A stretch of DNA of 64,000 nucleotides from Sphingobacteriaceae bacterium (GTDB lineage: Bacteria > Bacteroidota > Bacteroidia > B-17B0 > Aurantibacillaceae), in assembly GCA_002319075.1 (NCBI GenBank), contig NVQB01000001.1:4216001-4280000 (forward strand), in the 5' to 3' direction. The translations under genes and the position numbers were made by a program. Below, piece by piece: positions 11,599 to 43,268 of this stretch. The notes beneath the pieces were generated by a model. That model made no database searches. It was given only the letters and a program-made list of their open reading frames with translations, and had not been told where the DNA came from. Positions within the stretch are counted from its first letter, which is position 1. Every line of letters begins with the position of its first letter.

Positions 11599-11672
11599 TC
11601 CTTCTTAGCTCAGCTGGTTAGAGCACATGACTGTTAATCATGGGGTCCCTGGTTCGAGCCCAGGAGAGGGAG
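11599..11672 (+). tRNA. tRNA-Asn (GTT)
   Basis: A complete cloverleaf: acceptor TCCTTCT pairs with AGAGGGA (one T-G wobble), D stem GCTC/GAGC, anticodon stem CATGA/TCATG with loop CTGTTAA (anticodon GTT), T arm CCTGG-TTCGAGC-CCAGG, discriminator G at 11672. CCA is not encoded. Its last 16 bases form most of the left attachment repeat of the genomic island, and the decayed serine recombinase frame on the opposite strand ends inside it. Confidence 0.95.
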
Positions 11673-11673
11673 C
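11657..11673. repeat. Left attachment repeat (attL)
   Basis: AGCCCAGGAGAGGGAGC, spanning the T-stem 3' strand, acceptor 3' strand and discriminator of tRNA-Asn plus one base. Identical to 53344-53360. Confidence 0.8.
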
Positions 11674-12329: not shown

Positions 12330-13308
12330 TACGCATGCGCATAGCATTAAAACTATAGGCTCATTTTACGGCATTAATGGCAAAAAGCTTCAGCGTTACT
12401 ATCGTAAGAAATTAAGTGATTATAACGATTGGAAATACAAGAATAAAGCCGAACAAGGAATTATATTTCCTGAAAACATTGGTCCTTATTTATCCATTGA
12501 TGAGACCTGTTTATCACACTCAGAGCTTTACACAATCCTCTCCAACAAAGCGGCAAAAGGGAAGAAGGGTACCATAGTTGCGATTTTAAAGGGGACTCAC
12601 TCGGAGAGCATAATCTCATTGCTACAAAGTATCCCCTTACATCTTAGAAAGAGAGTTCGTGAAGTCACACTGGATCTTGCGGGTAGCATGGGGTTAATCG
12701 TAAAAAAATGTTTTCCTCATGCAAGTATGGTTATTGATCGCTTCCATGTTCAACAGTTAGCTACCGAAGCACTCCAGGAAATAAGAATAAGACATCGTTG
12801 GGAAGCTATAGAGGCTGAAAATAATGGCATTGACGAATCCCGGAAAAACAAAAGAGCTTATGTCCCTGAAATTTTAAGTAATGGTGAGACTCTCAAACAA
12901 CTACTCGCAAGAAGCCGCTATTTACTCTACAAAGCCGAACACAACTGGACTTTAGAACAATCCCAAAGAGCTAACATACTTTTTGATCGTTATCCTGATA
13001 TTAAAAAAGCGTATGGTCTGGCTCAAAAATTATCCTGGATCTACAGCAATACAAAAGAGAAAATATATGCGTTTACAAGATTAGCCAAATGGCATGAAGA
13101 GGTTGCCCAATCTGGGTTCAAGACCTTCAATACCCTATCCAGAACCATTGAAAACAATTACAAAAGAATACTAAACTACTTTAATAACAGAAGTACTAAT
13201 GCCTCAGCCGAATCATTTAATGCGAAAATCAAAGCTTTTAGAGCGCAATACCGAGGAGTTACAGATGTAAATTTCTTCCTATTTAGACTCTCTAAACTAT
13301 TTGCCTAA
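12316..13308 (+). CDS. ISAon1-family DDE transposase (ORF B, frame +1 to ORF A)
   Basis: The frame is open from 12316 to the stop at 13306-13308 and has no good ATG until 12619, well inside the catalytic domain, so it is probably made as a fusion with ORF A by frameshifting. Catalytic residues of the ISL3-like DDE fold can be placed: first Asp in LSIDETCLSH, second Asp in DLAGSM, with VIDRFHVQQLA just after it, and Glu in SAESFNAKIKAF near the end. The domain is full length and appears intact. Confidence 0.85.
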   Translation, partial: KKLVDTHAHSIKTIGSFYGINGKKLQRYYRKKLSDYNDWKYKNKAEQGIIFPENIGPYLSIDETCLSHSELYTILSNKAAKGKKGTIVAILKGTHSESIISLLQSIPLHLRKRVREVTLDLAGSMGLIVKKCFPHASMVIDRFHVQQLATEALQEIRIRHRWEAIEAENNGIDESRKNKRAYVPEILSNGETLKQLLARSRYLLYKAEHNWTLEQSQRANILFDRYPDIKKAYGLAQKLSWIYSNTKEKIYAFTRLAKWHEEVAQSGFKTFNTLSRTIENNYKRILNYFNNRSTNASAESFNAKIKAFRAQYRGVTDVNFFLFRLSKLFA

Positions 13309-14068: not shown

Positions 14069-14087
14069 CATCTAGTTCGAATTACTC

Positions 14088-14129
14088 CAAAAAAAATCTC
14101 CGGATATGGCTATGCAACATCCGGAGATT
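14088..14129 (-). terminator. Terminator of the giant-protein operon
   Basis: AATCTCCGGAT (14095-14105) and ATCCGGAGATT (14119-14129) form an 11-bp stem with a 13-nt loop; on the minus strand it is followed by a T tract. It sits 18 bp after the stop of the 598-residue gene. Confidence 0.85.
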
Positions 14130-14147
14130 CTAAATATTGTAGTATAT

Positions 14148-15944
14148 CTACTTCTGCATCAAATAATCAAATCTTAATTCGCTACTTGCTTCTCCTCTTC
14201 CATTCTGTTTTCTTCTACCCAGCCATAATGCAACCTGACCATGATGCCAGCGCGCACGTTGCCAGGTCATTGTTAATATTGCACCGGAACGCGGCACCTC
14301 TTCCTCCCAGATATAACTTCTCTGCCATGATGTATCTGTTGAGCCAGCCTTAAGTATCGTTGTCCGTGGTCTTACGCGACCACTCGGAGCATTATTTAGA
14401 ATTTGTCGCGCCATTGCTCCGCGTTGTAATTGAATATCCGGAACCCCAGTAGTTGACCCTCTGTTTACCGGTATAAACGGAATCCAGTTTTCAGGAACCC
14501 TTGTCATCAAATTATATTTTATTTCCGCAGTATTTGGATTACCAAATGTGGACGGAGTAGATCCAGCATTAGCTTCCAAGAATGCTGTCAATCGCTGAGC
14601 AGCTTCTTTACCAGGTTGTCCGCCTGAAACGCCATTAGGAATAATTGTTTCAATTCCCCAAACCATATTGGCCATCTCGTCGCGCATTAAATTCACGCTT
14701 TCCAATTCAGCACTCTCTTCCATATTTTGAACAACGGGTGGAATAAATAGTCTGGGATCAACAACATCAGAACCTTGAGTTTTGAGCGTGAACATGTTCC
14801 AGTCGTTATTACTGGCAGAGGTAATGTAAGTGACTTGTCCAAATACATCGGTCACAAGCACTTTACGAAGATTGCAAATTGACCCGGTAGGCACAGTATA
14901 AGGTAAAAGAGTCCAATCATTGCTGTATAAAGTTGCGAATTCACTAACTAAAAGTTGAGCAGTATCGGTAGTAGATGCACTCATATTTCCAATGTCAATA
15001 CGGCGATCTTCCATTTCCCAGAAGCGAGGGGCAGGCATACCTCCAAAACTTATTTTTGATGGAATTACAGTGAATGGCTGCTGTTCGATAAGCTCCCGCG
15101 CCGGATTATCGGATATCAATGAAGTAAACTGTGAATACTGGTCCTGGATATTGAAAGAGTACCAGTCCAAGTGGCCTTGATAATATTCTTCAGCACTAAG
15201 CACGCTATAAGCCGTGTCACTTTTGGGTGCAGAACATGTGAATTGGTATTCAAGATGATCATGAAGCCAGTAGTCTTCAGATGCTCCTGCTGGTTGAGAA
15301 TAAACACTATTATACCAAGCTAGAAATGCTAATCCAGTAGCATCTAGTTTTGAAGTCATCGAAGGGTTTGTTGGAGAAAAAGTAATAAGTGTTGATAGAG
15401 CAACTGCTGCTTTTAGCTGAGTTATGATTTTAAAACCATCTATAGCTCTTCCGTTACGAATTGCTAAGGTGGCTTGATGTAATTCTGGACTACTCAAGAA
15501 CTCTGGAGTCGTCGGCATTGGTGAACCAAATTTAAAAATAACTGTATTACGAACATTATCCAAAGCTGTATCAAGGGCTGGATCTGCTAAAGCATTTGGA
15601 GTTGTGCCCAAACTCTGTTGAAGCATTTTAATAAACTGTCTTCCTAATTCAATGCGGTGCAATAAATCAGGAACCACTGGTTCACGCTCTACAAGACATT
15701 CTAAAGGCACGTTAGTATCTATAGTCACATCTGCGCCTTGTTTTTTTGCTATACGATTTATGCGCGAAGTCTGCATATCAAGTCTGGCAAATGCTGCCGT
15801 GCCAGTATCTTCAGCATTAAATTCTCCAATTTGCCATTGGCGCGTTATCATCCACAGGGCGTCGCGTACTTCCGCGCGTAATGATCGCGCAAAACTGTTT
15901 GTTCTAGGGCGAGGCTCTAGTCTATTCCATGTTTGTACAGGCAT
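14148..15944 (-). CDS. Uncharacterised conserved protein, third gene of giant operon (598 aa)
   Basis: No signal peptide or membrane helix. The N-terminus has DALWMITRQWQIGEF at 28-42, followed by EDTG; a ready match, from memory, to unnamed proteins of several phyla with the signature LW-x-ARQWQ-x-GEF-x-GEDAG. The middle has a W/Y-rich segment (YYQGHLDWYSF). RFWEMEDRRIDIGN at about 305-318 and the C-terminal SYIWEEEVPRSG...TWQRARW block also look conserved. No catalytic motif is visible; a structural or binding role seems more likely than an enzyme (inference). It begins 20 bp after the 2145-residue gene, is the last gene of the operon, and is followed by a strong terminator. Confidence 0.75.
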   Translation of the reverse strand: MPVQTWNRLEPRPRTNSFARSLRAEVRDALWMITRQWQIGEFNAEDTGTAAFARLDMQTSRINRIAKKQGADVTIDTNVPLECLVEREPVVPDLLHRIELGRQFIKMLQQSLGTTPNALADPALDTALDNVRNTVIFKFGSPMPTTPEFLSSPELHQATLAIRNGRAIDGFKIITQLKAAVALSTLITFSPTNPSMTSKLDATGLAFLAWYNSVYSQPAGASEDYWLHDHLEYQFTCSAPKSDTAYSVLSAEEYYQGHLDWYSFNIQDQYSQFTSLISDNPARELIEQQPFTVIPSKISFGGMPAPRFWEMEDRRIDIGNMSASTTDTAQLLVSEFATLYSNDWTLLPYTVPTGSICNLRKVLVTDVFGQVTYITSASNNDWNMFTLKTQGSDVVDPRLFIPPVVQNMEESAELESVNLMRDEMANMVWGIETIIPNGVSGGQPGKEAAQRLTAFLEANAGSTPSTFGNPNTAEIKYNLMTRVPENWIPFIPVNRGSTTGVPDIQLQRGAMARQILNNAPSGRVRPRTTILKAGSTDTSWQRSYIWEEEVPRSGAILTMTWQRARWHHGQVALWLGRRKQNGRGEASSELRFDYLMQK

Positions 15945-15964
15945 ATCTTTTTATTTTAGTATTG

Positions 15965-18900
15965 TTATTGAGTTGAACCATTTCTATCAACAGGATAATC
16001 ATATCCTAGCGACGTATCAATGCCATTTTTGCCGAAGTCGAGTGAAGGCGATACATCAGAGCCACCACCACTTATTTGAGCCATGATAGCAGGCAGTACT
16101 TGGCTCAAAGGACTATCTTGAATCATGTCTGGCTCTACAGCACGAATTTGCGCCATTTGTATTGTTTCATTAAGCGTATCCATGAGATCATTCCAGGCCC
16201 AACTGCTTTTAATTTCAGGAGTAACGGCAAGAATAATACTTTGAGGTGCTTCAGAAGAGGGCTGATCATAATTAATCGCAATACCAGAGGTAACTTGATC
16301 AATAGGAATTTGTTCTGCCCACTCGTCAATCACCATCCCACAGGTTGGTATAGCTGAGGATGTTCCGTCAGATTCAATAATCATTGAAATAGCGTCGGGT
16401 GGAATTTCATAGCCAGTTGGTAATTTCATACCAATCCATCTGTCTGTTCCTGTGGTTGTATCTTTAACCGGAAATTGAAATACGTTCTGTTTTGTAAACG
16501 CAAAGGAGCTTGTAGATGCAGGACTATAACGCACACTTTCAGCAATAACCATTTGCTTATGATATTCACCCATGCGTGAGCGAACTCTCGCCACACCAGC
16601 CATCCATGCTTCAATAGGAAATGGACCCGCATCATCTAATAAGGTAGTATAATTTGAGGCAGCTTGAACTTCCGTTGCATTGTGCAATGTAAAAGTTGTA
16701 AATACTTTAAACGAACGCCCAAAAATAAGTTTTGCAATTTCTGCCAATTCGGTAACACAAACTTTATGTTTTGCAGCTGTGTTAGCTTGCCCCACCAAAA
16801 TAGTTACAGCTGACAATCTGGTATCGGCCTCATCATATCGTTTTTTTAAGTCTTTGTATGCGGTGTCAGCTTGTTCTACTAATCTATCTCTTGTCTCCAC
16901 AGTCGTCGACGAAAATGCTTCCGGATATGCTGTGGTAACTCCAAATTCTGAAGCCGTAACTAAAACTGTACGTAAATTATTTAGTTTAGTCGCGCCGCCC
17001 GCAGGAATTGCTGGTGCATAGACCATTGCGGCCACAAGGTCGCGTTTTGTTGTAGGGGTAGTAGTTGGTTGTCCACTAACGTAGACTGCCTCAAGATCAC
17101 CAATCAAGCCACTCATAGTAACCTTTGCAGTTGTAATCCGGTTTTTCAATGCTACGCTGTCTAGCGCTCCTGCTGGCGACGCCATGGCGCTGAGAACAGA
17201 TGGAAGTAAAAAATCATCAGGACTTAGTTGCCGCCCATTTCCTATAATTCTGCTAAGGCTCTTAAGCATAGGCGTTAACTGGAAAATACTGCATTGATCA
17301 GCCGTAAATCCGGTCTCGTCCATGAAAAAAATCTTTACTTCTACATCGTCAGTCAACGTATTTGCAGATCGAACGTAAGCTTTAATTCTGCGCGAAAGTT
17401 CGCTGGAGTCAGCTGATTGATTCTCTCCCGACGATTCAAAAATGTAAAGTAAATCTATTGGTTGCAAATTAAGATTTGCAACAGTTAGATTAAACATAGT
17501 TGCATTTGTTCCGTGCTTGTAATTAATGCGAATGTTCGCAGGCGTTGGGAGTTGAGATGCTAACCAGATATTTAAAGCAGGTTCGGCAGTCGCACGTGTA
17601 CTGCTTGCAGTCCAATTAGTATTGGCAATAGCTGGTGTAAACTGCACTGCACAGCGATGAGTAAACGTATCTGCCTGACGAGGAGTTTTTATTATTTCTG
17701 GTTCGGGTATATTCTTGGCATATCCAAGCGCTTGTAGCACACTACCTGCCCGTTCATGATTACCTTTAGTAATTTGAAATATGGCCTCTGATAATAACAA
17801 ATCTCCAATTGCATCTAGATCGTCTTTTATCTTTACAATCTCTTTTACAATATTTGCTCCATCAGTGGTGTAGGCACTTGTAGTGGTATTGTAAATTAAG
17901 GCGGGGTTGGATAAACCACTATACCAAAATGGCGTGGTAGTTCTAGCATAGTATTCAAGTAATTTTAAGCCATCAACGACATTTCTACTTTGTCCATCTT
18001 TATTCTGCCCCACGGGAGTTTGTGTAAGAGTTCCTGCAACGAGTGAGTAAAGACTTCGAAGATCTTCGATATAGCCGTCCAATGACGTGACGGAAGATTG
18101 CCTCTCATGCAAACCTCTTTCAAATCGATAACCTAACAATGCGGCAAGGTTCTGACCGTTACGAATACCATCAATGTAAAACATGGCTGTGCGCACACGA
18201 TCTGAAGAAAGGGTAACTGCCATAGTTTTTGCATTCGTCACTGTGCTGTTGTGAGCTGCATATCCTGCCCGCATTACAGCTGCTGCCACCGCATGGTTTA
18301 AAGATGGAGCGAGAATAAATCCTTTATTGTCTGTGTTATATTGCTGTCCAGAAACGATTTTTCCACTATCTGGATCTTCTATCAAAAGTGTATTAGGATC
18401 ATCGCCGAGGTAGACAAATGAAGCTGGTTGTGTTCCTGTCGCCTGCGCTGTAACATAAGCCCCTCCAGAATTAACTGGGTAACCATTTATTTCGGTTAGG
18501 TCAAGAATCTTACGCTGACCTTTTTTTGCGACTGCACCGGTCCAGGAATCTGCTGCACTAATATTTACAACGTGAACTCCCTTAAAAGAACCTGGTTTTG
18601 GCCTTTCTAAAATTCCATAGGCTCCGAGATAAATTCCATTTGGTGTTGCTGTCCTTTGTTCCTGAAGACGTTTGTTTACCAAACCATTAAACCACGAATC
18701 TAATCTGTAAGCACAAGTATCCAGGCTTTCAGCGAAAATACGTTCAAGGCGGGCCGTTGGTAAATTTTTTAGTTTAATGAGGGCGTTATTAGTATCCCGT
18801 AAATCGGTATAACATGGGTTTGTTGAATTTATCTGCGACCTAATATAGTCGCCTACTGATACATCACGAGAAATGGTGTCGTATTTTGCGCTAACATAAG

Positions 18901-21900
18901 CCCACTGATTTTCATTAACCGTGTACTCACTAAGTCGCTGATCGTATCTGCTGGTTGTGGAACTTGCAACCGAACTGGCTGATTGATCACGAAGGTAAAT
19001 TTCGTATTCGGCCTCGTTCAATCCCGATTGCTGATAGTGCGTATTAGTTGTGAGATTACGCATGGTATCCTCTATCACCAATTCATTTTCAAACTGCACT
19101 TCCGATCTTACAAAGCCAAGTAGCATGTCTTTTTGTTCAGCTGTAGCATTTGATGGTCCATTCTCAGCAGTCATCTTAGCGGCTTCATGGTTATGCCAGG
19201 CATCCTGGGTTATTGTCCCAGTCGTGGTCAAAAGGCAATGCGCTGTTTTAAGATACTCAAGCAACCATGCGTGTCTCAGTAATAAATATAACAAAGCTCT
19301 TGGAGCTTTAAAATCAGACGGTACTGGATTTTGAACGTTTGTGAAGTTTTCGCTCCGTATATTACCGATTGGACTACCTACTAACCATTCAATGTAGTTA
19401 GACGTGCTATTAGTCAGCTTTTCTAATTCCCTTATTTCTGACAAAGGCAGCGTATCTATCACTGGCCCGTTTAGTAACCATTGTGATCTTGCAAAACCCA
19501 TAGTGAAAATACGGGGGATGTTAAAGTAAGAAAAGCTCTGTAGAGAAGCACTCTTATATAAAGCATCAAGTTGAAGAGATGCATTTACGTCAGATAAGGG
19601 ACTTAATGGTTGAGTTATACCTGCAGCGGTCATAAATTTGGTCATGTTCGATGACAAAACCGCTCCAATACTTGTGCGTTGGTGAAATTGTAAGGAGCTT
19701 GGATGAAGCCCTAAAATATTAATTAGTAAATCACCGGGGTTGGCAGATCCTTGTTGTATGTGTTTAACCTTAACAAAAAAATTTGCTATCCAATACTTAC
19801 GAAGTCTTTCCAAGATGCCTTTATGCAATTTGGCTTCGTAAATTGTTTTATCGCTGTACTTCCATTTAGAATAAACAGTAGATGTCAAAATACCATAAGG
19901 TTGATTTCGAACTCTGAACGCTGGAATAAGTCCTCTTCCTAAAACATAGTTGGTAAAAAAACTCCGCGTGTCATCAATATGGCTTTGAACTATAGATGGT
20001 GTTAGCATATTTTTTGCGTAATATCCCATTGTTGCCGGCCACAATGCACGATTCATAGCCATTCCTTCTTCAACATCTTTCGTTTTGCTGTTACGTATAT
20101 GTTGAAAAACAGACGTATTTACACCGAGCGCTTCTGCAATTCTTTGACCATCGGCTTTATCATAATGTGTGCTTGTCGTAGTAAATTGATTTGCGCCTAA
20201 TTCTATCTCAAAACTTTCCTCATATCCTGGTTCTAAACTAGCAAACCCAGATTTGCTTTCTTCTGTATTATTAGTAGGCGTACCCTGCGGCACCAGCGCT
20301 AAGCCGGCAGAGTAGTGATGATTGTCTAGAAGTGTTTCAAGTTCCTGTTTAGATGCCGTTGCATTTAAATCTAACTTCGTACCAAGTACTAATAAACGGT
20401 CGAAACCATCATTTTTTTCATTATTTTGAAGTGTAATACGGATTCCCATCCCGATTTTTTCAGCTTCTTCAAAATCAGTAAGCCAACGTAGATCCGCGGG
20501 CATATTAATCTCGCTGCCATTTTGATCAAGATAATTCGTGTACGGATCCATCGGATCAAACCCCACTGGCAATGGCGAAGGAACTGGCTGACCTACCACC
20601 TCTCGGTAAGTGTTATTGCTGTATACACGAACTACAAATCGCTCAGGCATAACCCGAGTTTCCGGCTTTTGTGACCACGACGCTGTTTGCAAAGCTATAG
20701 TTGGAAGCGTGGGAAAAGGATTTAATATCGTTAATGACGGGTCGGTTAAACTTGGATCATCCGCAGGCTTGCCTGTTGTGCCTGGATTAGTCTGTGAAAC
20801 GATCCACGCTGCTCGCTTCGATCCGTAAGAACTGCACAAAACCCTCCACGCACCTAGTTCAAATTTTTTAACGCCGCAAGCTTTCCATACTTCGTTCCAA
20901 TAAATTTGCGCGTCATCTTTTTCAGTCTGCGTGAGTTTACTTTCGTGTGTATGTATAGAAATTGCATCAGGATAGATCCTTACCCAAAGCTCATGTAAGT
21001 CTGCAATGGCCTCTGAAACAGTTGCAGTGGGTACTGTGCTGCCTGTCACCGGTGGAGAGCTGTAAGTTACCGTCCTGCTATCTGTCACAGTCTTTATCGC
21101 TTGTACATCCGCATCAGTTCTTATAACGCTTGTGTAAGAGGAATAAGATATATTGTCGCGAACATGTTTAATGGTCATAAAACGCGTCTCCAAACGCACT
21201 GGTAAAAGGGCGAAAGGTATATTGTCGTTTAACAACTGCACTTTTAATCTTGGATCAGCACTATAAAAATCGAAGAGATTCCAGAATACACTTGTAGCAC
21301 TGGCTAACTTGCTTCCTGTAGACTCAGCGTAAATCGCCATTATATGAAACTTATCTACCGTTACTCGGAAATCTTTGTAATAAGCTATTTCGGCTGCTGT
21401 GCCAGTTCTAAATTCGAGTTGCTTACTATAAGCTTCGAGCTCGTTGTAAGCAATTGTTAGTAGACGGGCATTTTCATTTATAATCTTCGCTTCAGCTCTT
21501 CTTTCCGTTGCTGTTGCTTTTGCAGTGGGAAGGTCTGGATTACTTGCTTCACTTGTAAAACCTACTGCCGCTGATTTTAACTGTCTAAGCAGAGCATCTT
21601 GTGAGGTACTTTTAGATGGAGCAGCGGCTATTAAATTATTAATTGACGTTTTAACTGTGTTTAATAAAGTGTCAGTGGTAACATTTATTATGCCTTTCAC
21701 CAAGCCATCTCCAAGGGTTTTCAGATTCGTTCTGGCGGTCTGCATTGCGCTGATAACTGGCGTCATGTCATCTGAGATAGTTTTTGCCTGAACTAACAAA
21801 GTATTAACTTGTGCTGCAGTTTTAGGAGCGATAGAAGCTATGAGTTCCTGTAATTTAGTCTTCACGGCGAGTAGACGCGCTGTATAGGTGCTGGCATTAC

Positions 21901-22402
21901 TTTCCGAAAAGTTTACCACAGTGAAATCACGCTCTAATTGAGCATCAAATTGTGTTACAAAATTTCGCCTCTGTGAACCAGGTGTGCCAATATTAAAATG
22001 TTGACGAATCTCTGTAATTTCATTATAGATTTGATGGGTTTCTGCGGCATCATTATACAGATTTACAGCATCATTATAGAGAGTGTTTACAGTATTTAAT
22101 GCACTATTCATGCTAGCAGACGTGTCCACAACCAAAGTATTAGCGGCGTCAGCTAGACTTGAAAGTATACTTGTAATAGGTTCCGAGTCATCATTCATCT
22201 GTTCGTCAGATGTAGATAACATATTGGTTATCTGATTAAGTGTTGGATTATTAGTATAGGGAATACTGTTATTTTGAAATCCATTAGCTAATTGAATAAA
22301 CTGGGGGTGCACTTCGTTTTGAAGACGATCTTTGTGAGCCGCAAGTCTGTTTACAAGATCAGGGGCATTCCCTAAGAGTGTGTTTAAAGTTGTAATAGTC
22401 AT
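15965..22402 (-). CDS. Giant uncharacterised conserved protein, second gene of operon (2145 aa)
   Basis: No signal peptide or transmembrane segment. Residues 1-340 are alanine/threonine-rich and helical, probably coiled coil. The conserved core starts near 397 with FALLPVRLETRF, then ELWVRIYPDAISIHTHE (about 465-482, with a following SKLT-x-x-E), MPERFVVRVYSN, and a block RGLIPAFRVRNQPYGIL near 822-838. I recall these phrases from very large unnamed proteins in other bacteria, always without known function. The remaining C-terminal 1300 residues alternate helical and beta-rich parts and contain no recognised enzyme motif. It lies 39 bp after the 992-residue gene and 20 bp before the 598-residue gene, so the three products are made together and may form one complex. 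Confidence 0.78.
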   Translation of the reverse strand: MTITTLNTLLGNAPDLVNRLAAHKDRLQNEVHPQFIQLANGFQNNSIPYTNNPTLNQITNMLSTSDEQMNDDSEPITSILSSLADAANTLVVDTSASMNSALNTVNTLYNDAVNLYNDAAETHQIYNEITEIRQHFNIGTPGSQRRNFVTQFDAQLERDFTVVNFSESNASTYTARLLAVKTKLQELIASIAPKTAAQVNTLLVQAKTISDDMTPVISAMQTARTNLKTLGDGLVKGIINVTTDTLLNTVKTSINNLIAAAPSKSTSQDALLRQLKSAAVGFTSEASNPDLPTAKATATERRAEAKIINENARLLTIAYNELEAYSKQLEFRTGTAAEIAYYKDFRVTVDKFHIMAIYAESTGSKLASATSVFWNLFDFYSADPRLKVQLLNDNIPFALLPVRLETRFMTIKHVRDNISYSSYTSVIRTDADVQAIKTVTDSRTVTYSSPPVTGSTVPTATVSEAIADLHELWVRIYPDAISIHTHESKLTQTEKDDAQIYWNEVWKACGVKKFELGAWRVLCSSYGSKRAAWIVSQTNPGTTGKPADDPSLTDPSLTILNPFPTLPTIALQTASWSQKPETRVMPERFVVRVYSNNTYREVVGQPVPSPLPVGFDPMDPYTNYLDQNGSEINMPADLRWLTDFEEAEKIGMGIRITLQNNEKNDGFDRLLVLGTKLDLNATASKQELETLLDNHHYSAGLALVPQGTPTNNTEESKSGFASLEPGYEESFEIELGANQFTTTSTHYDKADGQRIAEALGVNTSVFQHIRNSKTKDVEEGMAMNRALWPATMGYYAKNMLTPSIVQSHIDDTRSFFTNYVLGRGLIPAFRVRNQPYGILTSTVYSKWKYSDKTIYEAKLHKGILERLRKYWIANFFVKVKHIQQGSANPGDLLINILGLHPSSLQFHQRTSIGAVLSSNMTKFMTAAGITQPLSPLSDVNASLQLDALYKSASLQSFSYFNIPRIFTMGFARSQWLLNGPVIDTLPLSEIRELEKLTNSTSNYIEWLVGSPIGNIRSENFTNVQNPVPSDFKAPRALLYLLLRHAWLLEYLKTAHCLLTTTGTITQDAWHNHEAAKMTAENGPSNATAEQKDMLLGFVRSEVQFENELVIEDTMRNLTTNTHYQQSGLNEAEYEIYLRDQSASSVASSTTSRYDQRLSEYTVNENQWAYVSAKYDTISRDVSVGDYIRSQINSTNPCYTDLRDTNNALIKLKNLPTARLERIFAESLDTCAYRLDSWFNGLVNKRLQEQRTATPNGIYLGAYGILERPKPGSFKGVHVVNISAADSWTGAVAKKGQRKILDLTEINGYPVNSGGAYVTAQATGTQPASFVYLGDDPNTLLIEDPDSGKIVSGQQYNTDNKGFILAPSLNHAVAAAVMRAGYAAHNSTVTNAKTMAVTLSSDRVRTAMFYIDGIRNGQNLAALLGYRFERGLHERQSSVTSLDGYIEDLRSLYSLVAGTLTQTPVGQNKDGQSRNVVDGLKLLEYYARTTTPFWYSGLSNPALIYNTTTSAYTTDGANIVKEIVKIKDDLDAIGDLLLSEAIFQITKGNHERAGSVLQALGYAKNIPEPEIIKTPRQADTFTHRCAVQFTPAIANTNWTASSTRATAEPALNIWLASQLPTPANIRINYKHGTNATMFNLTVANLNLQPIDLLYIFESSGENQSADSSELSRRIKAYVRSANTLTDDVEVKIFFMDETGFTADQCSIFQLTPMLKSLSRIIGNGRQLSPDDFLLPSVLSAMASPAGALDSVALKNRITTAKVTMSGLIGDLEAVYVSGQPTTTPTTKRDLVAAMVYAPAIPAGGATKLNNLRTVLVTASEFGVTTAYPEAFSSTTVETRDRLVEQADTAYKDLKKRYDEADTRLSAVTILVGQANTAAKHKVCVTELAEIAKLIFGRSFKVFTTFTLHNATEVQAASNYTTLLDDAGPFPIEAWMAGVARVRSRMGEYHKQMVIAESVRYSPASTSSFAFTKQNVFQFPVKDTTTGTDRWIGMKLPTGYEIPPDAISMIIESDGTSSAIPTCGMVIDEWAEQIPIDQVTSGIAINYDQPSSEAPQSIILAVTPEIKSSWAWNDLMDTLNETIQMAQIRAVEPDMIQDSPLSQVLPAIMAQISGGGSDVSPSLDFGKNGIDTSLGYDYPVDRNGSTQ

Positions 22403-22441
22403 AAGTAAAGCTTATAAATTCAAAATTATTTGGGTTATTTT

Positions 22442-25420
22442 CTAAGGTATCATTTCGTTAGCGTGAATAAATACCTGTACAGGCTGCTGGTAAAGTATTT
22501 GTGCCATAGCGGCTGAGTCTTCCGCCCAAAGAGTGTCGGTTGATTCTGGCTTAAATACTTTTGCATCAGATGGCGCTGAACTGGAGAATCCGGGTGACTG
22601 GTTTAATAACAAGTATTTGCAATAGTTTTTAGCAACATGATCCCAAGTAAGTTCCGCCCAGTTGTTTAAAGGAAGGGTCGGTGGAGGCAATGGCTCATCT
22701 AGACCAAAGCGCAGCTCTCCGGTTCGTTCCATTAAAACAAAGAACCATCCTGGAATCGGTGGATTCAAAGTTTTATCCCCCTTCGCAGCAGTATCAGTCA
22801 GATCGAATCCCAAGAATGTAATTTCCGGATCAATATCTGCCCTAAAAATTGGCATCTTAACAGCGGCTGTTTCATCAGGAATGCGCTTTTTACTATAATC
22901 TAAACCTGGGCCGCTTTGATTTGGCGGATATGTTGCTGGCACTGCGTAAATAATAATGTTTGGAAACTTTTTTAACAGATCGCCTCGTATCGCTAATACA
23001 AGGGTGTTGCCTACCGTAACGGGTCTGGTAGAATGACTCCCAAGAGCAGTGTTCCCCCAGCTGTACATATCTGTTATATCTGTTGTAGGTGTTGTGGCAT
23101 CTACACTACTCCAAAAATGTTTAAAATAGGTGCCCCGCTGATCGGTTGGATACTCACGCCATAACAATTCTCGTCCCATCTCATAATTAGCCCCGGCAAG
23201 AAAAGCTTCTATAAATTTCTGATTAGATTTTAAAAGTGTTATTGAATTTTGTGGGATCAGATTTAAATTCGGAACAAGGTAGTCGACTCCCAGTTCGAGA
23301 AGCGACTTGTACATAGGAAGCTTAAAAGATGGAGCTGCCATTGCAGGTAATATTACTACTGGAGTTGTGGTTTGGTTAGGATTATTTACGCTACCATAAA
23401 AACTGTTGGTGTGTGTTACGGAAGGATTAATACCATCGGCCACAGTTGCAGAACTTGTGGTTAAATTAGGTGCGTTTGCAGGAGTGGCCCAATTCGCAGC
23501 AGCATATACTCCGCTATAGGCCGAGAAACTACCCTTAAAGTTATTGGCTACTGTATAACTTGCGCTCGGCATCGTGCCCTGTGGCAAACTAATATTAAAT
23601 TGAATAGAAGGTTGAATTGCAGCATTCTTAATTGCTGTAACTGAATAGTCGAGACTACTAATATCAAAGGTCGCGTACTGTAGTGGTAAGGCGGGTTTGG
23701 GAGCCACAGGCGCCGCATTTCCTTGTATCATCCTTGCCACTGGATTGTTAGTTTGGCCAACCGTAAAGCTAACCCTTCTCATAATAGCTCCATTAGGGCT
23801 ACTTAGCCTGCGAAAAGTTGATGATGTTGCACCAACCGCCATGCTACTACTTACGGCAGCCTGTTTCACAGTCGTTGTCCCACTTCTAATTCTTCCCAGC
23901 ACATTAGTAGTCATCGGTAAAATTTGTTCGATGGGTTGTGAGGCAATGTGTTTTGCATGCATTGCTGCTGAGGTATTCGCGGTAAGTTGTGCAATGTTCG
24001 CTTTTCTATTTGTGTCCAAAACTTTGCCTACCTGGCTCCAGGCCTCTTTCATTAATAAATCCTGATTTTTACGTACATAGTCTCCACCAAGGGAAGCTGC
24101 AACTCTGTAACGAGGATCAAGATTTAATTCATTTAACCAGGGAATTCCTGTACTCGTATTTAATTTATTTTGCAACGCGTGCCAACGTCCATACATCGGT
24201 GGCGTAACAATCGGATCGTCTCCGAGGGAATTGCTGCTATTCCCGGGATCAAGAGTAGTGTAAATAGTATTAGTAATAGTTGCACTCTGAATGTCTTGTC
24301 CTAGATTTATAAAGTCACGTAAATAATTACGATAATTGGTTTCATTTGTTCCTGTTGGGAAAAGCGGTGCATTATAGCCTGCGATTCCCAATGCCCCTTC
24401 GAGCATTTCGGTGCCTGCTGTCGGCCCTGCTGTACTGGCGAGTTGCAGACCATAACCAGGATCCTGAATATCCATAAGTCTTTTACCCACACGTTGGTCC
24501 AGCAATCTCGGTTTTACTTGTCGTACCAAATATTCAAAATCTCCCGTCGCTCCTGTTCTAAAGTACCATTCATGATAAATTGGAAATGTTCCAAGCTGTT
24601 CGTCAGGAGTGCCCGGCCAAGGTGTTGCATGATTCCAGGCAGGAGCTTGAGCCATGATACCTGATGTGGATAATCCTAATCCGGCTCTCCGACCAGTTTC
24701 ATAGGTCGGAATAAGAAAGGCGTAGTAGGATGTATTTTCTTCTAGTTTTCTTGGGCAAAGCAATCTGGAGATTCCTATGTAGGGCTTGTCTTTTATTTTC
24801 TGATCAAGCGCTGCAAGGTCAGCGTCCAGATTCGTAGGCGTTACCTCATCATCAACGCTAACATGTGCCCATGCCCAAACTTCCTCGTTAAAAGGTAGTG
24901 GCCTATTTAATGGAGTTGTGAGGGGATCTAATACAACTGCATTTAATGGTGCATCTTTTAACGTTGCACGGGTAAATTCATCTTCCTTCAATACGATAAG
25001 AGTTAACCAAGGTCTTAATTTACCTCCTTCAGTTGCGTTAGGTACTGAGGGAAACTTTGCTACTGCTGGACTATAACGCCAAGGAAAATCCTCTTCATAA
25101 AAGTCAATGAAAGGAAAACTGTGGGGCTCAAAATTGGTGATCCAGTCGCGAGGTTCTGTTTTTACAATCGCGTCTGGATGAATCCCTATAACATCACCTG
25201 GTCCTATGATCTGGAAATCCATATCCAATGGACTAGCAGAAGCTGGAACAACCGCATTGCTTGAATTTTTTACATTTACGTGAACATATGCTTTTATGGT
25301 AGGGCGTTCGGTAACATTTGATGTTCCTTGCGTGGTACCATCAAAAATTTCAGTTTGTGAAATTTGGGAAGCCAGTCCTCGTCTGGCCCACGGAAGAAAG
25401 GTGTGATTTGCGTCGCTCAT
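22442..25420 (-). CDS. Uncharacterised conserved protein, first gene of giant operon (992 aa)
   Basis: No signal peptide. It starts with HTFLPWARRGLASQIS (6-21); further conserved-looking blocks are GPGDVIGI at 73-80, FPFIDFYEEDFPWRYSPA at 102-119, KLRPWLTLIVLKEDEF near 134-149, ELLWREYPTDQRGTYFKHFW near 752-771 and, near the C-terminus, PGWFFVLMERTGELRFGLDEP. From memory these mark a family of unnamed proteins that accompanies the other two giant proteins elsewhere. A serine/threonine/proline-rich, low-complexity region lies in the middle (about 480-680). It is the first gene of the operon; the paired regulatory site S2 lies 123 bp upstream. Confidence 0.77.
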   Translation of the reverse strand: MSDANHTFLPWARRGLASQISQTEIFDGTTQGTSNVTERPTIKAYVHVNVKNSSNAVVPASASPLDMDFQIIGPGDVIGIHPDAIVKTEPRDWITNFEPHSFPFIDFYEEDFPWRYSPAVAKFPSVPNATEGGKLRPWLTLIVLKEDEFTRATLKDAPLNAVVLDPLTTPLNRPLPFNEEVWAWAHVSVDDEVTPTNLDADLAALDQKIKDKPYIGISRLLCPRKLEENTSYYAFLIPTYETGRRAGLGLSTSGIMAQAPAWNHATPWPGTPDEQLGTFPIYHEWYFRTGATGDFEYLVRQVKPRLLDQRVGKRLMDIQDPGYGLQLASTAGPTAGTEMLEGALGIAGYNAPLFPTGTNETNYRNYLRDFINLGQDIQSATITNTIYTTLDPGNSSNSLGDDPIVTPPMYGRWHALQNKLNTSTGIPWLNELNLDPRYRVAASLGGDYVRKNQDLLMKEAWSQVGKVLDTNRKANIAQLTANTSAAMHAKHIASQPIEQILPMTTNVLGRIRSGTTTVKQAAVSSSMAVGATSSTFRRLSSPNGAIMRRVSFTVGQTNNPVARMIQGNAAPVAPKPALPLQYATFDISSLDYSVTAIKNAAIQPSIQFNISLPQGTMPSASYTVANNFKGSFSAYSGVYAAANWATPANAPNLTTSSATVADGINPSVTHTNSFYGSVNNPNQTTTPVVILPAMAAPSFKLPMYKSLLELGVDYLVPNLNLIPQNSITLLKSNQKFIEAFLAGANYEMGRELLWREYPTDQRGTYFKHFWSSVDATTPTTDITDMYSWGNTALGSHSTRPVTVGNTLVLAIRGDLLKKFPNIIIYAVPATYPPNQSGPGLDYSKKRIPDETAAVKMPIFRADIDPEITFLGFDLTDTAAKGDKTLNPPIPGWFFVLMERTGELRFGLDEPLPPPTLPLNNWAELTWDHVAKNYCKYLLLNQSPGFSSSAPSDAKVFKPESTDTLWAEDSAAMAQILYQQPVQVFIHANEMIP

Positions 25421-25542
25421 AATTTACTAAGTCGAATTTGTTTATATATACTGCTCTGCTAATTGTAAGGCATACTTCAATCATACACCTTGTATAATTT
25501 TATAAGTTTAACTCCTGCACAATGAATGTGCAAGAACAGGTG

Positions 25543-25574
25543 TACCTGATTTTTGTTGCTCAGGTACTGGAAAT
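25543..25574 (+). promoter_or_regulatory. Paired 22-bp regulatory site S2
   Basis: TACCTGATTT at 25543 and TACTGGAAAT at 25565, spaced 22 bp, in the 178-bp gap between the 992-aa gene start and the end of the upstream DUF6603-like gene. Confidence 0.65.
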
Positions 25575-25590: not shown

Positions 25591-27552
25591 CGTTTTCATT
25601 ACACTGCCACTTCAAATTGGTTAACTATTTGTAATTGTCCTTCAAGTGCTGGGTTTAATAGCAGTTGCTGTTCAAGAATTTTTTGTGCTTCAATTCTTGA
25701 ACCGGCTATTAAGCTGTTGTAACTTGTAAGATCCGATGTTTTTGCAATTGCAAAGCTTGCTGCTGTTTCCGTAATGGGTAGTGGTGCATCAGAGGCGCGC
25801 AAGCGATCTGTTGAAGCTGACCCTAAGTTAGAGTTGGCCGCAGTTGTTCCCATCGTACTATTAGCTCTAAATGCTACAGCAATTGTAGATGGACTTGTCA
25901 TACGTACTGGGGTTCGGCGTGAATCCATAATTATTTGTTCATACTCATAACGTCTTCTGCGGGGCTTGCCTCCTTTTAAGGCGGTGCTTGTACTTTTTAC
26001 CTCTAGGCCTGATGTCAGCTCTTGAAAGGATGCACTATTGAGTCGGTCAGTTTCTGACAGGTTAAAGAATTCGTTAGGTGCAAAATATTCTTTCAGAGGG
26101 TCTTTTTGTAAAATATTTGTAGTGGAAGCATCGTAAGAAATATTTAAACTAAAATAAGAATAACCAAGTGGATCAGGACGACAATTACCAAAGCGTGTAA
26201 TGTCAATATCCAGTGGCACTATCTTCTGACTCACTGCCAGCTTGCCTTGTGGGTGAACTACCACTTCTGGTCCAGATGTATTAAATTCACGTATTGTTAC
26301 AAGCAAAGGCACATCATCCGATACCGTGGCCTGCCAGTTCTTTTTATCTTCAAGAGCTACGATGAGCTTATCTAATACTTTAACATCCAGTAAGGTTGTA
26401 GTGTCGTGATCTCCAAAGGTTTTATCAAAATCTTTGTCAAACTCAACGCCAAGTACTTTAAACGATACATTGCCTTGTACATGCCAAGGTGTTGGTCCTT
26501 CAAGCAAGCCTGCAAAAGATATGCTTAATATAGCTTTGTCTTTTCTGCGAACTTCTAAACTTCCATCAATGGATGCTTCAAAACGAAATGGTGAAAAGTA
26601 AAACAGTGCATCAAATCCTAAATGTCCACGCAGATCAATGTTGTCGTTTATTGCCCATAGAAAATCTATGGCTGCTCCAAACTGTGCTGTGTTAGAGGTG
26701 ATGGCAAAATAAGTACTGAGCGTTAAGCGTGGTTTTTCACCATCAATTAAATTGATGGTAAGTCTACGCATGTTTGGAATGTTGAGTGGTGGGATAGGGA
26801 ATTTCGGATGAAAACCTCCAACACTTAATACAAAGGTTGGCTTATCGCCCCACACAAGTCTGAATACCATATCCCCAGACAATCCCATGCCGGCTACTGA
26901 AGAATCAAATAAGGTAGCATCAAAAGTGATTGTCTTTTTCTCAAAGTTGATAATCCCTGCAAAAGCAATTTGCAGTTTTAAAACAGGTTTATCTTTATTT
27001 GGAAGAAGTGCGCGTATAACGCCAATCAACGCAAATTCATTAGCACCGGGTAGTTCAAAAAATAATCCCAGTTCTGCTGTAATTAAAGTCGGTGTTCCCC
27101 AACCAATAATAGCCATCGGTCCAAAAGAATATCTTCCTTCCTGTATTGGAAACACAGTTTCCAAAGAAGAAATTATACTATCGATATTCTCTACCGGATT
27201 GGTTGGAAATAAAATATTATCAATACTTCCATTACGAACACCATCGCGCAAACCATCGGTATTCATCCTGCGATGCAAGGCAATTATTCCTCCAACGCCG
27301 TTCAACGTAAATCCAAAGCCTAACTGAATCGGTTGAAACTCCGCTGTAATCAAAAGCAACAAAGAATAGCCTGGCTGTCCACTTGGTAGCTTCGTAGTTA
27401 AAATACCAATCGCCTTTATAGCAATCTTATCCTTAATACTTAATTCTAATGCCCCTACATATCTGCCTTCGTCTTTATTGAATGATAAAAAGCCGCCGCC
27501 AGAAATGGTTTTTGATTCCATCTTTAAACCTAAACCTGTTGGGGGTTTGAAG
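25591..27552. repeat. Gene-conversion repeat, copy A
   Basis: Matches 36731-38692 without any gap (constant offset of 11140 bp) at high identity by eye. It covers the last 651 codons of DUF6603-like copy A and about 8 bp past the stop. Identity falls off sharply at both ends. Confidence 0.9.
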
Positions 27553-29120
27553 CCTAGATCAAGTTCAATGTTACCTAAAATACCTTGGTTTTCGGTAGAC
27601 AACTTTTTGCTAGCTATCAACTCTACACCTATTCCTTTTACTGTGGCGCTGAAAGGTCCTAGTTTTAAACCAGCATTTAAAGAAAAAGCGAGCCCTGCAC
27701 CAGTAGATTTTTTAACCAAACGAACTAATAACTCATCAACGGATAACGGGCCAATAGTTTTATGAATAGGTAAACTATATTCAAAACCTAAATGCCCTTG
27801 TATCCCAAATCCTGATTTGGATGACCACTGCAAAGATCCATCCCAGGCAATATCCAAAGAATTAGTAAAGATTTTACTTATAAATCCATCCCCACTTCCA
27901 GGTTCTAAGATAAATCTAACTTCTCCACCTTCTGCTGTACCTAATGCTACAACTACTTCAATATCGGCCAAACTCCCTAGGATCTCCAAACTAGCCTCAA
28001 ATCCATCCAATTCAAGGCGGCTTTCACCTTTTGCTCCCAATAATATCCAAGGTCCATTGGATTCTTCAGGCACACCTGTGAGTTTGATATTTCCTTCAAT
28101 AAGTCCTGAACTTAAATTGGTATCTAACTCTGTTCCGTCTGGAAAAATTTTAAGTCCGAACACCCCAGTGCCCTCAAATTCTGCATTAAGGGCTAAGGTT
28201 AGCTCTGGTGTTAGAGGAACGCTCGATCCTAATTGCCCACGGACTAGAGGCGTCAAATACAGGCCATCTGGCACAGCATTAGTACCTGGAACTTTTGTTA
28301 TGGGCATAATTAATGCGCCTGCTTCAACGTAGTCGGTTTCATCAATCGTATGACCAGAAATTATCGGAACAGTAAGAGCTTCTATTCTTTGATCGTCAAT
28401 TTGCTGGGTCGTGAAAAAAGAATTGTATAATGCTTTAATCGGTGTATCCCGCGAAACAAGAATCTTCATTCCAAGCGCGAATTGTTCTAGATTATATAGA
28501 AGTTTAGCATGATTGAAATTATTATTGGGATCATTCCAAGAGTAAAGATTTCTAAGAGTTCTAGGAGCGTCAGTTACAAAATCTCCTAGCTGGGTAATAT
28601 CTATAGTGAACTTTTTATAGTTCATTTGATACGATAAAAGGTTTCCACTTGGAGTTTCATCTTCAATTTCAATTACACCTATTGAAAGAAAAATTCCATA
28701 TATAAGCGGTTGATTTAGCCTTAAATAGTTACAAATTAAATAAGATGGTAGACGTTCACTAATTGTCTGCCAAAAGAACGAATCATTCATTGGTCCAGGA
28801 ATACCTAATACACTACTCTGATCGTAATTTTTAATCGTGTTAAAAAAATCTTTGATTTTTTGAGCAAGATCAATAGTATTTTGAAGTTCATTTCCGCTTT
28901 GTTTCTGAATGTCTTCAACAAGAACTAATGCGTCATCAACGAGGTTAATAATAGACTGTAAAGAGGTTGCAATAGTCACAATTGAACTATTATCAATCTC
29001 TACGTTCCAGCCCAATTCTCCTAACAATACTTCCATTTCTGATGGATCTGACACTGCCGATTTAAGAGGATTGAGAGCTTCAGTCAGCGCGGTGCCGATG
29101 GGTTTTAAAAATAAACTCAT
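25599..29120 (-). CDS. DUF6603-like giant beta-rich protein, copy A (1173 aa)
   Basis: No signal peptide and no clear membrane helix. Residues 1-130 are helical; 130-520 are specific to this copy and diverge from copy B. From about 523 the sequence is the recognisable DUF6603 core: GFTLNGVGGIIALHRR, FGPMAIIGWGTPTLITAELG, LVWGDKPTFVLSVGGFHPKF, GHLGFDALFYFSPF and LLEGPTPWHVQG. The core is a long series of amphipathic beta strands, suggesting an elongated beta structure. The ATG overlaps the stop of the M64-like gene by ATGA. I count 20 amino-acid differences from copy B over the shared 651 residues. The function of the family is unknown. Confidence 0.8.
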   Translation of the reverse strand: MSLFLKPIGTALTEALNPLKSAVSDPSEMEVLLGELGWNVEIDNSSIVTIATSLQSIINLVDDALVLVEDIQKQSGNELQNTIDLAQKIKDFFNTIKNYDQSSVLGIPGPMNDSFFWQTISERLPSYLICNYLRLNQPLIYGIFLSIGVIEIEDETPSGNLLSYQMNYKKFTIDITQLGDFVTDAPRTLRNLYSWNDPNNNFNHAKLLYNLEQFALGMKILVSRDTPIKALYNSFFTTQQIDDQRIEALTVPIISGHTIDETDYVEAGALIMPITKVPGTNAVPDGLYLTPLVRGQLGSSVPLTPELTLALNAEFEGTGVFGLKIFPDGTELDTNLSSGLIEGNIKLTGVPEESNGPWILLGAKGESRLELDGFEASLEILGSLADIEVVVALGTAEGGEVRFILEPGSGDGFISKIFTNSLDIAWDGSLQWSSKSGFGIQGHLGFEYSLPIHKTIGPLSVDELLVRLVKKSTGAGLAFSLNAGLKLGPFSATVKGIGVELIASKKLSTENQGILGNIELDLGFKPPTGLGLKMESKTISGGGFLSFNKDEGRYVGALELSIKDKIAIKAIGILTTKLPSGQPGYSLLLLITAEFQPIQLGFGFTLNGVGGIIALHRRMNTDGLRDGVRNGSIDNILFPTNPVENIDSIISSLETVFPIQEGRYSFGPMAIIGWGTPTLITAELGLFFELPGANEFALIGVIRALLPNKDKPVLKLQIAFAGIINFEKKTITFDATLFDSSVAGMGLSGDMVFRLVWGDKPTFVLSVGGFHPKFPIPPLNIPNMRRLTINLIDGEKPRLTLSTYFAITSNTAQFGAAIDFLWAINDNIDLRGHLGFDALFYFSPFRFEASIDGSLEVRRKDKAILSISFAGLLEGPTPWHVQGNVSFKVLGVEFDKDFDKTFGDHDTTTLLDVKVLDKLIVALEDKKNWQATVSDDVPLLVTIREFNTSGPEVVVHPQGKLAVSQKIVPLDIDITRFGNCRPDPLGYSYFSLNISYDASTTNILQKDPLKEYFAPNEFFNLSETDRLNSASFQELTSGLEVKSTSTALKGGKPRRRRYEYEQIIMDSRRTPVRMTSPSTIAVAFRANSTMGTTAANSNLGSASTDRLRASDAPLPITETAASFAIAKTSDLTSYNSLIAGSRIEAQKILEQQLLLNPALEGQLQIVNQFEVAV

Positions 29121-36730: not shown

Positions 36731-38692
36731 CGTTTTCATTACACCGCCACTTCAAACTGGTTAACTATTTGTAATTGTCCTTCAAGTGCCGGGTTTAATA
36801 GCAGTTGCTGTTCAAGAATTTTTTGTGCTTCAATTCTTGAACCGGCTATTAAGCTGTTGTAACTTGTAAGATCCGATGTTTTTGCAATTGCAAAGCTTGC
36901 TGCTGTTTCCGTAATGGGTAGTGGTGCATCAGAGGCGCGCAAGCGATCTGTTGAAGCTGACCCTAAGTTAGAGTTGGCAGCAGTTGTTCCCGTCGTACTA
37001 GTAGCTCTAAATGCTACAGCAATTGTAGATGGACTTGTCATACGCACTGGGGTTCGGCGTGAATCCATAATTATTTGTTCATAATTATATTTTCGTCTGC
37101 GTGGCTTGCCTCCTTTTAATGCGGTGCTTGTGCTTTTTACCTCTAGTCCAGAGGTCAGTTTCTGAAAGGAAGCGCTATTGAGTCGGTCAGTTTCTGACAG
37201 GTTAAAGAATTCGTTAGGTGCAAAATATTCTTTCAGAGGGTCTTTTTGTAAAATGTTTGCAGTGGAAGCATCATAAGAAATATTTAAACTAAAATAAGAA
37301 TACCCTGTAGGATCAGGACGACAATTACCAAAGCGTGTAATGTCAATATCCAGTGGTACTATCTTCTGACTCACTGCCAGCTTGCCTTGTGGGTGAACTA
37401 CCACTTCTGGTCCAGATGTATTAAATTCACGTATTGTTACAAGCAAAGGCACATCATCTGATACCGTGGCCTGCCAGTTCTTTTTATCTTCAAGAGCTAC
37501 GATGAGTTTGTCTAATACTTTAACATCTGGTAAGGTTGTTGTGTCGTGATCTCCAAAGGTTTTATCAAAATCTTTGTCAAACTCAACTCCAAGTACTTTA
37601 AACGATACATTTCCTTGTACATGCCAAGGCGTTGGTCCTTCAAGCAAGCCTGCAAAAGATATGCTCATTATGGCCTTATTTCTTCTGCGAACTTCTAAAC
37701 TTCCATCTATAGATGCTTCAAAACGAAACGGTGAAAAATAAAATAAGGCGTCAAATCCTAAATGTCCGCGTAGGTCAATGTTATCATTTATTGCCCATAG
37801 AAAATCTATAGCTGCACCAAACTGTGCTGTGTTAGATGTAATGGCAAAATATGTACTGAGCGTTAAGCGTGGTTTTTCTCCATCAATTAAATTGATGGTG
37901 AGTCTACGCATGTTTGGAATGTTGAGTGGTGGGATAGGGAACTTCGGATGAAATCCTCCAACACTTAATACAAAGGTTGGCTTATCGCCCCACACAAGTC
38001 TGAATACCATATCCCCAGACAATCCCATGCCGGCTACTGAAGAATCAAATAAGGTAGCATCAAAGATGATTGTCTTTTTCTCAAAGTTGATAATCCCTGC
38101 AAAGGCAATTTGTAGTTTTAAGATAGGCTTATCTTTGTTTGGAAGAAGGGCGCGTATAACTCCAATTAAGGCAAATTCATTAGCACCTGGTAGTTCAAAA
38201 AATAATCCCAGTTCTGCTGTTATTAAAGTAGGTGTTCCCCAACCAATAATTGCCATTGGTCCAAAGGAATATCTTCCTTCCTGTATTGGAAACACTGTTT
38301 CTAAAGAAGAGATTATATTATCTATATTTTCTACCGGATTGGTTGGAAATAAAATATTATCAATAGTTCCATTACGTACACCATCGCGCAAGCCTTCGGT
38401 GTTCATCCTGCGATGCAATGCAATTATTCCTCCAACACCATTTAAAGTAAATCCAAATCCTAATTGTATCGGCTGAAACTCCGCTGTGATCAATAGCAAC
38501 AAAGAATATCCTGGCTGCCCACTCGGCAACTTCGTAGTTAAAATACCGATAGCCTTTATAGCAATCTTATCCTTTACACTCAATTCTAAAGCACCTACAT
38601 ACCTTCCCTCATCCTTATTAAATGATAAAAATCCGCCGCCGGTAACTGTGCCACTTTCCATCTTTAAGCCCAATCCTGTTGGGGGCTTGAAA
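36731..38692. repeat. Gene-conversion repeat, copy B
   Basis: Ungapped partner of 25591-27552. It covers the 3' 651 codons of DUF6603-like copy B and ends abruptly at about 38692, upstream of which the two genes are clearly diverged. Confidence 0.9.
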
Positions 38693-43100: not shown

Positions 43101-43268
43101 TAATCGGTAGTATGTATCATCACCTTCAAAGTTAACCCCTAAATGGTTACGCATATCATGTGTTGGGATACCGTTTCGTAATACATGCACATCAAATCCG
43201 AGATAATGTATACGCGTGCCTGCATATTCCAATTGTTTGGGATCCCAGATAATATAATCTATTGGCAT
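40188..43268 (-). CDS. M64-family (IgA peptidase-like) metallopeptidase (1026 aa)
   Basis: The zinc motif HELAH (His654, Glu655, His658) followed by GDEY (663-666) is intact, and NILFISEGFASSEEADFERMV (about 299-319) is the typical start of the M64 domain. The C-terminus has the CxxC block MPFCPICRYIMVNRI, preceded by a CAMRGS segment, as in M64 enzymes. Residues 1-290 are beta-rich, with Ig-like features. Between HExxH and the C-terminus is an insert of about 250 residues (proline-rich PPPPGALPQPEQ). There is no signal peptide, unusual for a family known from secreted enzymes. It lies 3 bp after the YD-repeat-like gene and overlaps DUF6603-like copy B by ATGA; likely one transcript from site S5. 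Confidence 0.8.
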   Translation of the reverse strand: MPIDYIIWDPKQLEYAGTRIHYLGFDVHVLRNGIPTHDMRNHLGVNFEGDDTYYRLMDVINNTAPPSPYPPFPNANDYSSVMFIPNLLGAETFHTNHINQPGTYPQPFQISTYGIAFDTNTGEVYASALAPGDPDCNRNFNFDVKVTMETSDHLTETSYRVHVHDAIVSAWMTPSAMDVIAEEDNNMFSIYAEFSEGTVGDITFHPDITWGSNSALISVANTGKFTPLAASIGVPSIEINAVIAIGSPINNANNNLTITPGTLTILDSWQNPTLSQASQPKVQFAGGPAEERINDFPNILFISEGFASSEEADFERMVSDLRCKMINRVTKRPWDLISPNMNFWSLFLPSQQSECTVRSEQIPFQVLVDEYPKGLPPTETTYDKLADVDTFINGVDSFLSQSEEKDGAIIIKAIYLKDTNEDIGTAARYLKQRASKISLDYEQRLSELVAKVGLATPSDTLASKAEVLAKWQTLYHPTITLEGVTGGASPDPHVYDDVYKCWLCTGERRLINHRNTALKLEFSSAPRRDGMLPSSSVSVGPGYQRMNRNNFDNLLKNIRSASAAAPVVGGVWAKNGAGFNKDFDFVAFLMHGPCDGGTQRDNTNNKRRTDTLCISLNPDTYFKGATAGAGRQLDLTPIAIPSEIPDHVFGTVTHELAHTFWLGDEYEGDDKNLKYNDEELYNLVPKSVVKPVLFVGDNIPWRWLRFAASGVVAAIQANAPNTDITLAAASHLTGFKITDKVRLRRRDIGDVVENDQVPPPPGALPQPEQGPEYYGPEVTIVNIKPDQNIIVVDNNPGALPVGSLLVKLVSSEVRGFGTIKIDMTTKKVQGTDTWFLTQVAELGFGGGAVLIADGNNYVVDYVDDDTNITLKTVQPNAVPSITVDKQYSIIPKEKYAEMINNSVRLAITNNNRPMTAEPYPGSDDDIQYPVLTQLTFDRSHNDEEKSIYKKFDVLILHENVVGLFGGGGEASKDVYHPTGYCAMRGSDSKGDMPFCPICRYIMVNRIDPSKHRILNEEYNRHFNPKI

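Follow-up and report, generated by a model that had tools for sequence, protein, structure and literature searches.

The DNA analyzed here is a stretch of 64,000 nucleotides of contig NVQB01000001.1 from a Sphingobacteriaceae bacterium, which will be referred to as the window. It encodes three very large proteins, A, B and C, next to D1, a protein carrying the domain DUF6603, and E1, the gene in front of D1. We regard it as probable, with a fair margin left for doubt, that such genes specify a modular enzyme carrier in which a conserved chassis loads, and presumably delivers, exchangeable enzymes (the cargo) through D. The argument is built on a gene block of constant order, on enzyme genes that vary at one fixed place beside it, on an N-terminal half of D that follows the type of enzyme, and on natural exchanges with their boundary inside D.

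Organisation and distribution of the D-A-B-C block

An initial annotation, made from the letters of the window, had described A, B and C as an operon of three proteins of 992, 2145 and 598 residues with gaps of 39 bp (A-B) and 20 bp (B-C), and these values proved to be exact. The unit is larger than the three genes proposed, for it also includes D, as an invariable fourth gene, and the cargo gene before D. At least a dozen bacterial phyla have the block in this order, as do salt-loving archaea. Searches with B by tblastn retrieved relatives on plasmids of Gemmatirosa, Streptomyces, Rhizobium and haloarchaea; in the loci that were inspected, the order is D-A-B-C on one strand when split open reading frames (ORFs) and contig ends are allowed for. 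Scanning species genomes with a single peptide pattern yielded 304 matches, 285 of which were relatives of B, a number that is a lower bound because only one pattern was used. Eighty loci were kept for comparison. D-A-B-C was intact in 56 of these, and nearly all of the remainder were cut by contig ends or contained split or fused ORFs; C was not within reach in L110, and D was placed after C in L146. The loci cover Bacteroidota, Balneolota, Ignavibacteriota, Acidobacteriota, Aminicenantes, Nitrospirota, Chloroflexota, Pseudomonadota, Actinomycetota, Cyanobacteriota, Planctomycetota, Kapaibacteria and WPS-2. Split ORFs were observed for A and B in Rhizobium and for D and B in Halobellus (L005, L008), which may be real splits or decay.

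Among 395 phylum genomes, B was detected in eight, C in the identical eight and DUF6603 in those eight and nine others. Neither a lone B nor a lone C was present in this set, homologues occurring singly being what the initial annotation had named as evidence against a joint unit. Its suggestion of a conserved, mobile and machine-like set agrees with the fixed order across phyla, the perfect co-occurrence of B and C and a fusion of both into one ORF (L144:4656-11162). From the genes we hypothesize that the A, B, C and D proteins form one physical complex or particle. A tree of C mixes the phyla, with at least six changes for Bacteroidota and at least five for Pseudomonadota on well-supported branches, a topology that is compatible with horizontal spread but falls short of proof. 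The module was not found in the 36 other genomes of the same genus that were searched. Synteny with a complete genome of this genus stops precisely at the 3′ end of tRNA-Asn (position 11673 of the window); the gene following tRNA-Asn in the relative is located elsewhere in the present genome, and so are the genes expected next.

Genomes with DUF6603 but lacking B carry a second type of operon, D'-A'-B' (examples are L079 and L082-L089). D' is often preceded by an enzyme-like gene, which in some cases is metallo-beta-lactamase-like or a DUF4135 gene. In hhalign comparisons, D' aligned with D at 99.7% (E 2e-25) and A' with the N-terminal part of A at 96% (E 4.5e-9), and B' (~1240 aa) has no similarity to B or C. 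As D' and the N-terminal part of A' are related to their counterparts and B' is not, the comparison points to D plus the N-terminal part of A as a putative ancestral core.

No Pfam, NCBIfam or PHROG family matched A, B or C above chance, nor did any PHROG family match the 56 C homologues, and profiles of A, B and C matched no chain of the Protein Data Bank (PDB) beyond chance. The initial annotation had seen no phage-tail motif in the three proteins and had counted a profile match to a well-known machine such as a phage baseplate as evidence against it; searches by profile, and by fold for C, gave no phage, baseplate or solved-structure match. The four sequence blocks it had quoted as conserved, LPWARRGLAS and LPVRLETRF among them, indeed lie in strongly conserved parts of the alignments, in which the homologues are 25-41% identical. 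Scans of viral contigs with B and C detected no relatives. An unverified faecal contig labelled 'Bacteriophage sp.' (L007, MT835531.1) encodes A-B-C and is probably bacterial DNA. Matches of the D profile in the PDB were helical bundles and coiled coils, limited to the N-terminal part. DUF6603 (PF20248) itself was recognised in D1 with E 5e-132 and 441 bits against a curated cut-off of 27; both copies of the genome, D1 and D2, score >440 bits and contain the whole domain, for which the Pfam entry states no function. In the library of papers searched, none contained DUF6603, and no paper found describes the constant partners of this domain, A, B, C and the cargo.

The cargo gene and its matching by D

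The gene directly before D lies on the same strand, often overlaps it and encodes a type of enzyme that varies among loci. Pfam searches with representatives assigned these cargos to subtilase S8, trypsin-like/NAL1, PhoD, M64, tyrosinase, phospholipase D, M14 and Het-C. The claim that no enzyme is present thus holds for A, B and C alone, since an exchangeable enzyme is encoded directly before D. The cargos have no clear signal peptide. Those few that pass a simple test of hydrophobicity are of the PhoD type, and their hydrophobic start belongs to a conserved LAGPIxRR segment. Signal peptides had been reported as missing from A, B and C too, and a simple heuristic confirmed this, a signal-peptide-like hydrophobic start being seen in 1 of 224 homologues of A, B or C and in 1 of 58 D proteins. 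A C-terminal domain of ~110-130 aa without Pfam match is common to the subtilase and trypsin-like cargos. This domain was also observed encoded alone beside the cargo gene (L098:1274-1690 and L123:1521-1907).

In the window, one chassis is accompanied by two cargo-adaptor pairs, E1-D1 and E2-D2. E2 is an M64 peptidase according to its match to PF09471 (E=2.5e-6) and its 990 bits against the M64-cargo profile, which was built with E2 included, and it possesses the HExxH zinc site (HELAHTFWLGDEY at residue ~654). For E1 only a marginal M64 match was obtained, the other cargo families were unmatched, and a search for HExxH in it found none; E1 may be a dead or a new enzyme.

Matching between cargo and D was evaluated in 41 loci of five cargo classes, taking the alignment columns up to residue 400 of D1 as the N-terminal half. 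Identity in this half was 27.8% for loci with the same cargo versus 18.0% for loci with different cargo. Controlled for the identity of the C-terminal half of D and of B, the effect of the same cargo was +9.2 points (0 of 500 label permutations reached it), and subtilase and trypsin-like loci, whose cargos have the C-terminal domain in common, were also closer to each other than expected (16 of 1000 permutations), both counts overstating the certainty because the loci are not phylogenetically independent. The nearest neighbour belonged to the same cargo class in 41/41 cases by the N-terminal half versus 25/41 by the C-terminal half. In a held-out check with D2, whose cargo is of the M64 type, the five nearest N-terminal halves were all from M64 loci. 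At the level of protein comparison, cargo matching by the N-terminal half of D is well supported.

In three pairs of D proteins, low similarity gives way to high similarity at residue ~480-520. D1 and D2 are ~28% identical up to residue ~520 and 97% identical from residue 523 on; the near-identical part comprises the C-terminal 650 residues of D2, with 92.6% DNA identity across 1956 bp. The loci of a member of the Methylococcales (L103) and of Nitrosomonas ureae (L153) have 86% DNA identity over 13 kb, from D codon ~487 to the end of C. On the 5′ side of this junction their DNA cannot be aligned, and the cargos, trypsin-like versus tyrosinase, are unrelated proteins. A like switch occurs at D codon ~477 between L168 and L169, with a trypsin-like cargo in one and a subtilase in the other. 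Three separate junctions lie at nearly one position of D, which therefore represents a cassette boundary. As read from these junctions, enzyme and matching adaptor are shown to have been exchanged in nature as one cassette.

Predicted structures and proposed function

The model of D comprises a helical N-terminal region (1-240) followed by ~30 or more beta-strands (248-902), with a predicted local distance difference test score (pLDDT) of ~90 in 520-900 and an overall predicted template modelling score (pTM) of 0.44. The strands are two-faced, with an alternation of hydrophobic and polar residues of 3.16 versus 1.27 in permutations. Because the structure matches of D are outer-membrane barrels and porins (Z ~14 at a root-mean-square deviation, rmsd, of ~10 A), we read the DUF6603 half as a predicted long amphipathic beta-sheet, which may form a barrel or a lipid-facing surface. 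By the heuristic above, the signal peptide expected of an outer-membrane barrel is missing from nearly all D proteins, and D also occurs in Actinomycetota and haloarchaea. The amphipathic sheet also matches ApoB (Foldseek E ~3e-3). This match and the alternating faces of the strands would suit a non-offensive enzymatic complex on lipids or surfaces, for instance an ApoB-like lipid carrier with tethered enzymes; proteases, phosphatase, tyrosinase and phospholipase D, however, fit no single lipid pathway, and lipid metabolism genes do not recur near the loci, which makes this explanation improbable. AlphaFold2 gave a model of C with pLDDT 80.8 and pTM 0.78, for which Foldseek returned weak and partial matches only, none below 1e-3 in the PDB or in a viral library. 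A hydrophobicity scan identified a two-helix transmembrane hairpin in the middle of A in 33 of 66 homologues; it is absent from A of the window.

In the carrier that we favour, A, B, C and the DUF6603 half of D would form the conserved chassis, and the first gene of each unit would supply the exchangeable, signal-less enzyme. The N-terminal half of D would act as the adaptor that holds the cargo, direct binding being suggested by co-variation and swaps, so that cargo and adaptor would move as a cassette. The DUF6603 half is predicted to insert into or to line a membrane or lipid surface, and in about half of the systems A may contribute an anchor in the membrane. Least certain are the last two steps, in which the assembled complex might leave the producer, e.g., by lysis or by a partner system, and the hydrolases might be delivered to other cells in competition or predation.

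Several points weigh against this proposal. The module contains no ATPase, secretion or immunity gene, and E1 is without a recognised active site. Assignment of the 41 loci to cargo families relied on clustering with representatives that had been scanned against Pfam, and these loci are phylogenetically non-independent. The global confidence of the D model is low (pTM 0.44), the rmsd of the barrel match is large, and the barrel likeness may reflect only a common meander arrangement.

The strongest competitor is a cytoplasmic compartment or membrane-bound scaffold, built of A, B, C and D, that would sequester a dangerous enzyme and free it in the same cell upon a signal such as phage attack or stress, as a means of suicide or defence. 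Signal-less cargos and the transmembrane hairpin in half of the A homologues would agree with it, one subtilase cargo matches the subtilase model of PADLOC, and suicide systems also use trypsin-like, subtilase and Het-C classes. Speaking against it, none of the components was recognised as a sensor, an NTPase or a nucleic-acid-binding protein, PADLOC models gave no match for A, B, C, D1, E1 or E2, and tyrosinase and M14 cargos would be unusual for suicide. We consider this explanation rather unlikely, though deserving of attention. The carrier could also be given a wider reading, namely as an undescribed cross-phylum delivery machine that is unrelated to phage tails and Tc toxins, whose DUF6603 protein serves as both adaptor and membrane-crossing element and whose cassettes recombine at a fixed point. 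This we put forward tentatively, as a minority view; its novelty is claimed because none of the proteins was recognised as part of a known machine, by fold search for C and by sequence for A and B.

If the enzyme carrier is real, 'hypothetical proteins' widespread in bacteria and archaea would turn out to be one system with a testable rule, by which the cargo is predictable from the N-terminal half of D. DUF6603 would gain a role, the missing export signals of the peptidases and phosphatases would be explained, and a naturally modular enzyme carrier might be on offer.

Features of the window

The coordinates are compiled in Table 1. The strong terminator claimed behind C was found as a hairpin (arms 14095-14110/14114-14129) followed by a U run. 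A paired site had been noted in front of the operon; inverted repeats do precede A, but they are short and lie inside the conserved block, between D1 and A; they are a candidate regulatory site. According to the alignments, B has an N-terminal extension of ~380 aa that is absent from most homologues. The second cargo-adaptor pair, E2 plus D2 (36739-43268), is without A-B-C of its own. Between the two cargo-D units, a secreted SBBP/PKD protein with a type IX sorting domain is encoded at 33677-36589.

Table 1: Genes and elements around A-B-C (positions of the window).
Feature	Position	Strand	Description
tRNA-Asn	11599..11673	+	synteny with complete same-genus genome breaks at 3′ end
ISL3-type transposase fragment	12619..13308	+	PF01610 E=2.7e-48; between tRNA-Asn and operon
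Terminator-like hairpin (intrinsic type) 3′ of C	14085..14145	−	U run; −23 kcal/mol, z = −5.8
C	14148..15944	−	ORF, 598 aa; most conserved chassis protein; homologues in 55 loci 33-42% identical
B	15965..22402	−	ORF, 2145 aa; largest chassis protein
A	22442..25420	−	ORF, 992 aa; chassis protein
Two inverted repeats, D1-A interval	25513..25567	−	25513-25535 and 25542-25567; 8-9 bp
D1	25599..29120	−	1173 aa; N-terminal part residues 1 to ~520, DUF6603 part ~523 to end
DUF6603 core of D1, matching D2 at 92.6% DNA identity	25599..27554	−	blastn and sliding identity
E1	29117..31741	−	874 aa; cargo-position gene, 4-nt overlap with D1
D2	36739..40191	−	1150 aa; second DUF6603 protein
E2	40188..43268	−	1026 aa; M64 peptidase cargo, 4-nt overlap with D2

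Comparison with known systems

Extracellular contractile injection systems (eCIS) such as PVC and Afp resemble the module in being multi-gene sets with a variable toxin-like cargo that occur in many phyla and in archaea, and both are neighbours in Chitinophaga. In contrast to eCIS, the module has no sheath, tube, baseplate or ATPase, and most of its loci are without eCIS genes nearby. Genes for Pvc16, sheath and tube lie directly downstream of C on the same strand in five loci of the Chitinophaga group (L116, L118, L119, L120, L149; ~17000-24700), as would be expected of an eCIS accessory in which D-A-B-C loads or packs cargo into the injection system. However, no other examined locus has these genes nearby, and Pvc16_N, present in 76 of the 395 phylum genomes, is found in only two of the eight module-bearing genomes, where it lies on other contigs, and the present genome lacks it. 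We consider the accessory role very unlikely. A general link to eCIS was rejected, the eCIS neighbours being restricted to the Chitinophaga group. In the window itself, phmmer detected no sheath, tube or Pvc16/DUF4255 among the ORFs, and PF14065 was not found in the genome.

No relationship with phage tails or baseplates was detected by sequence, A, B and C matching no phage protein family above chance. Tc/ABC toxins, like the module, consist of few very large proteins and a variable enzyme component. They differ in that sequence profiles built for A, B and C retrieve no solved structure, with no significant match to TcA or TcB-TcC chains in the PDB, and in that the cargo of the module is a separate gene, with the cargo-matching half located within D. 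In type VI secretion, a cargo-specific adaptor is likewise encoded next to the effector, whereas in the module, in which no type VI secretion genes were recognised, the putative adaptor is the N-terminal half of a chassis protein.
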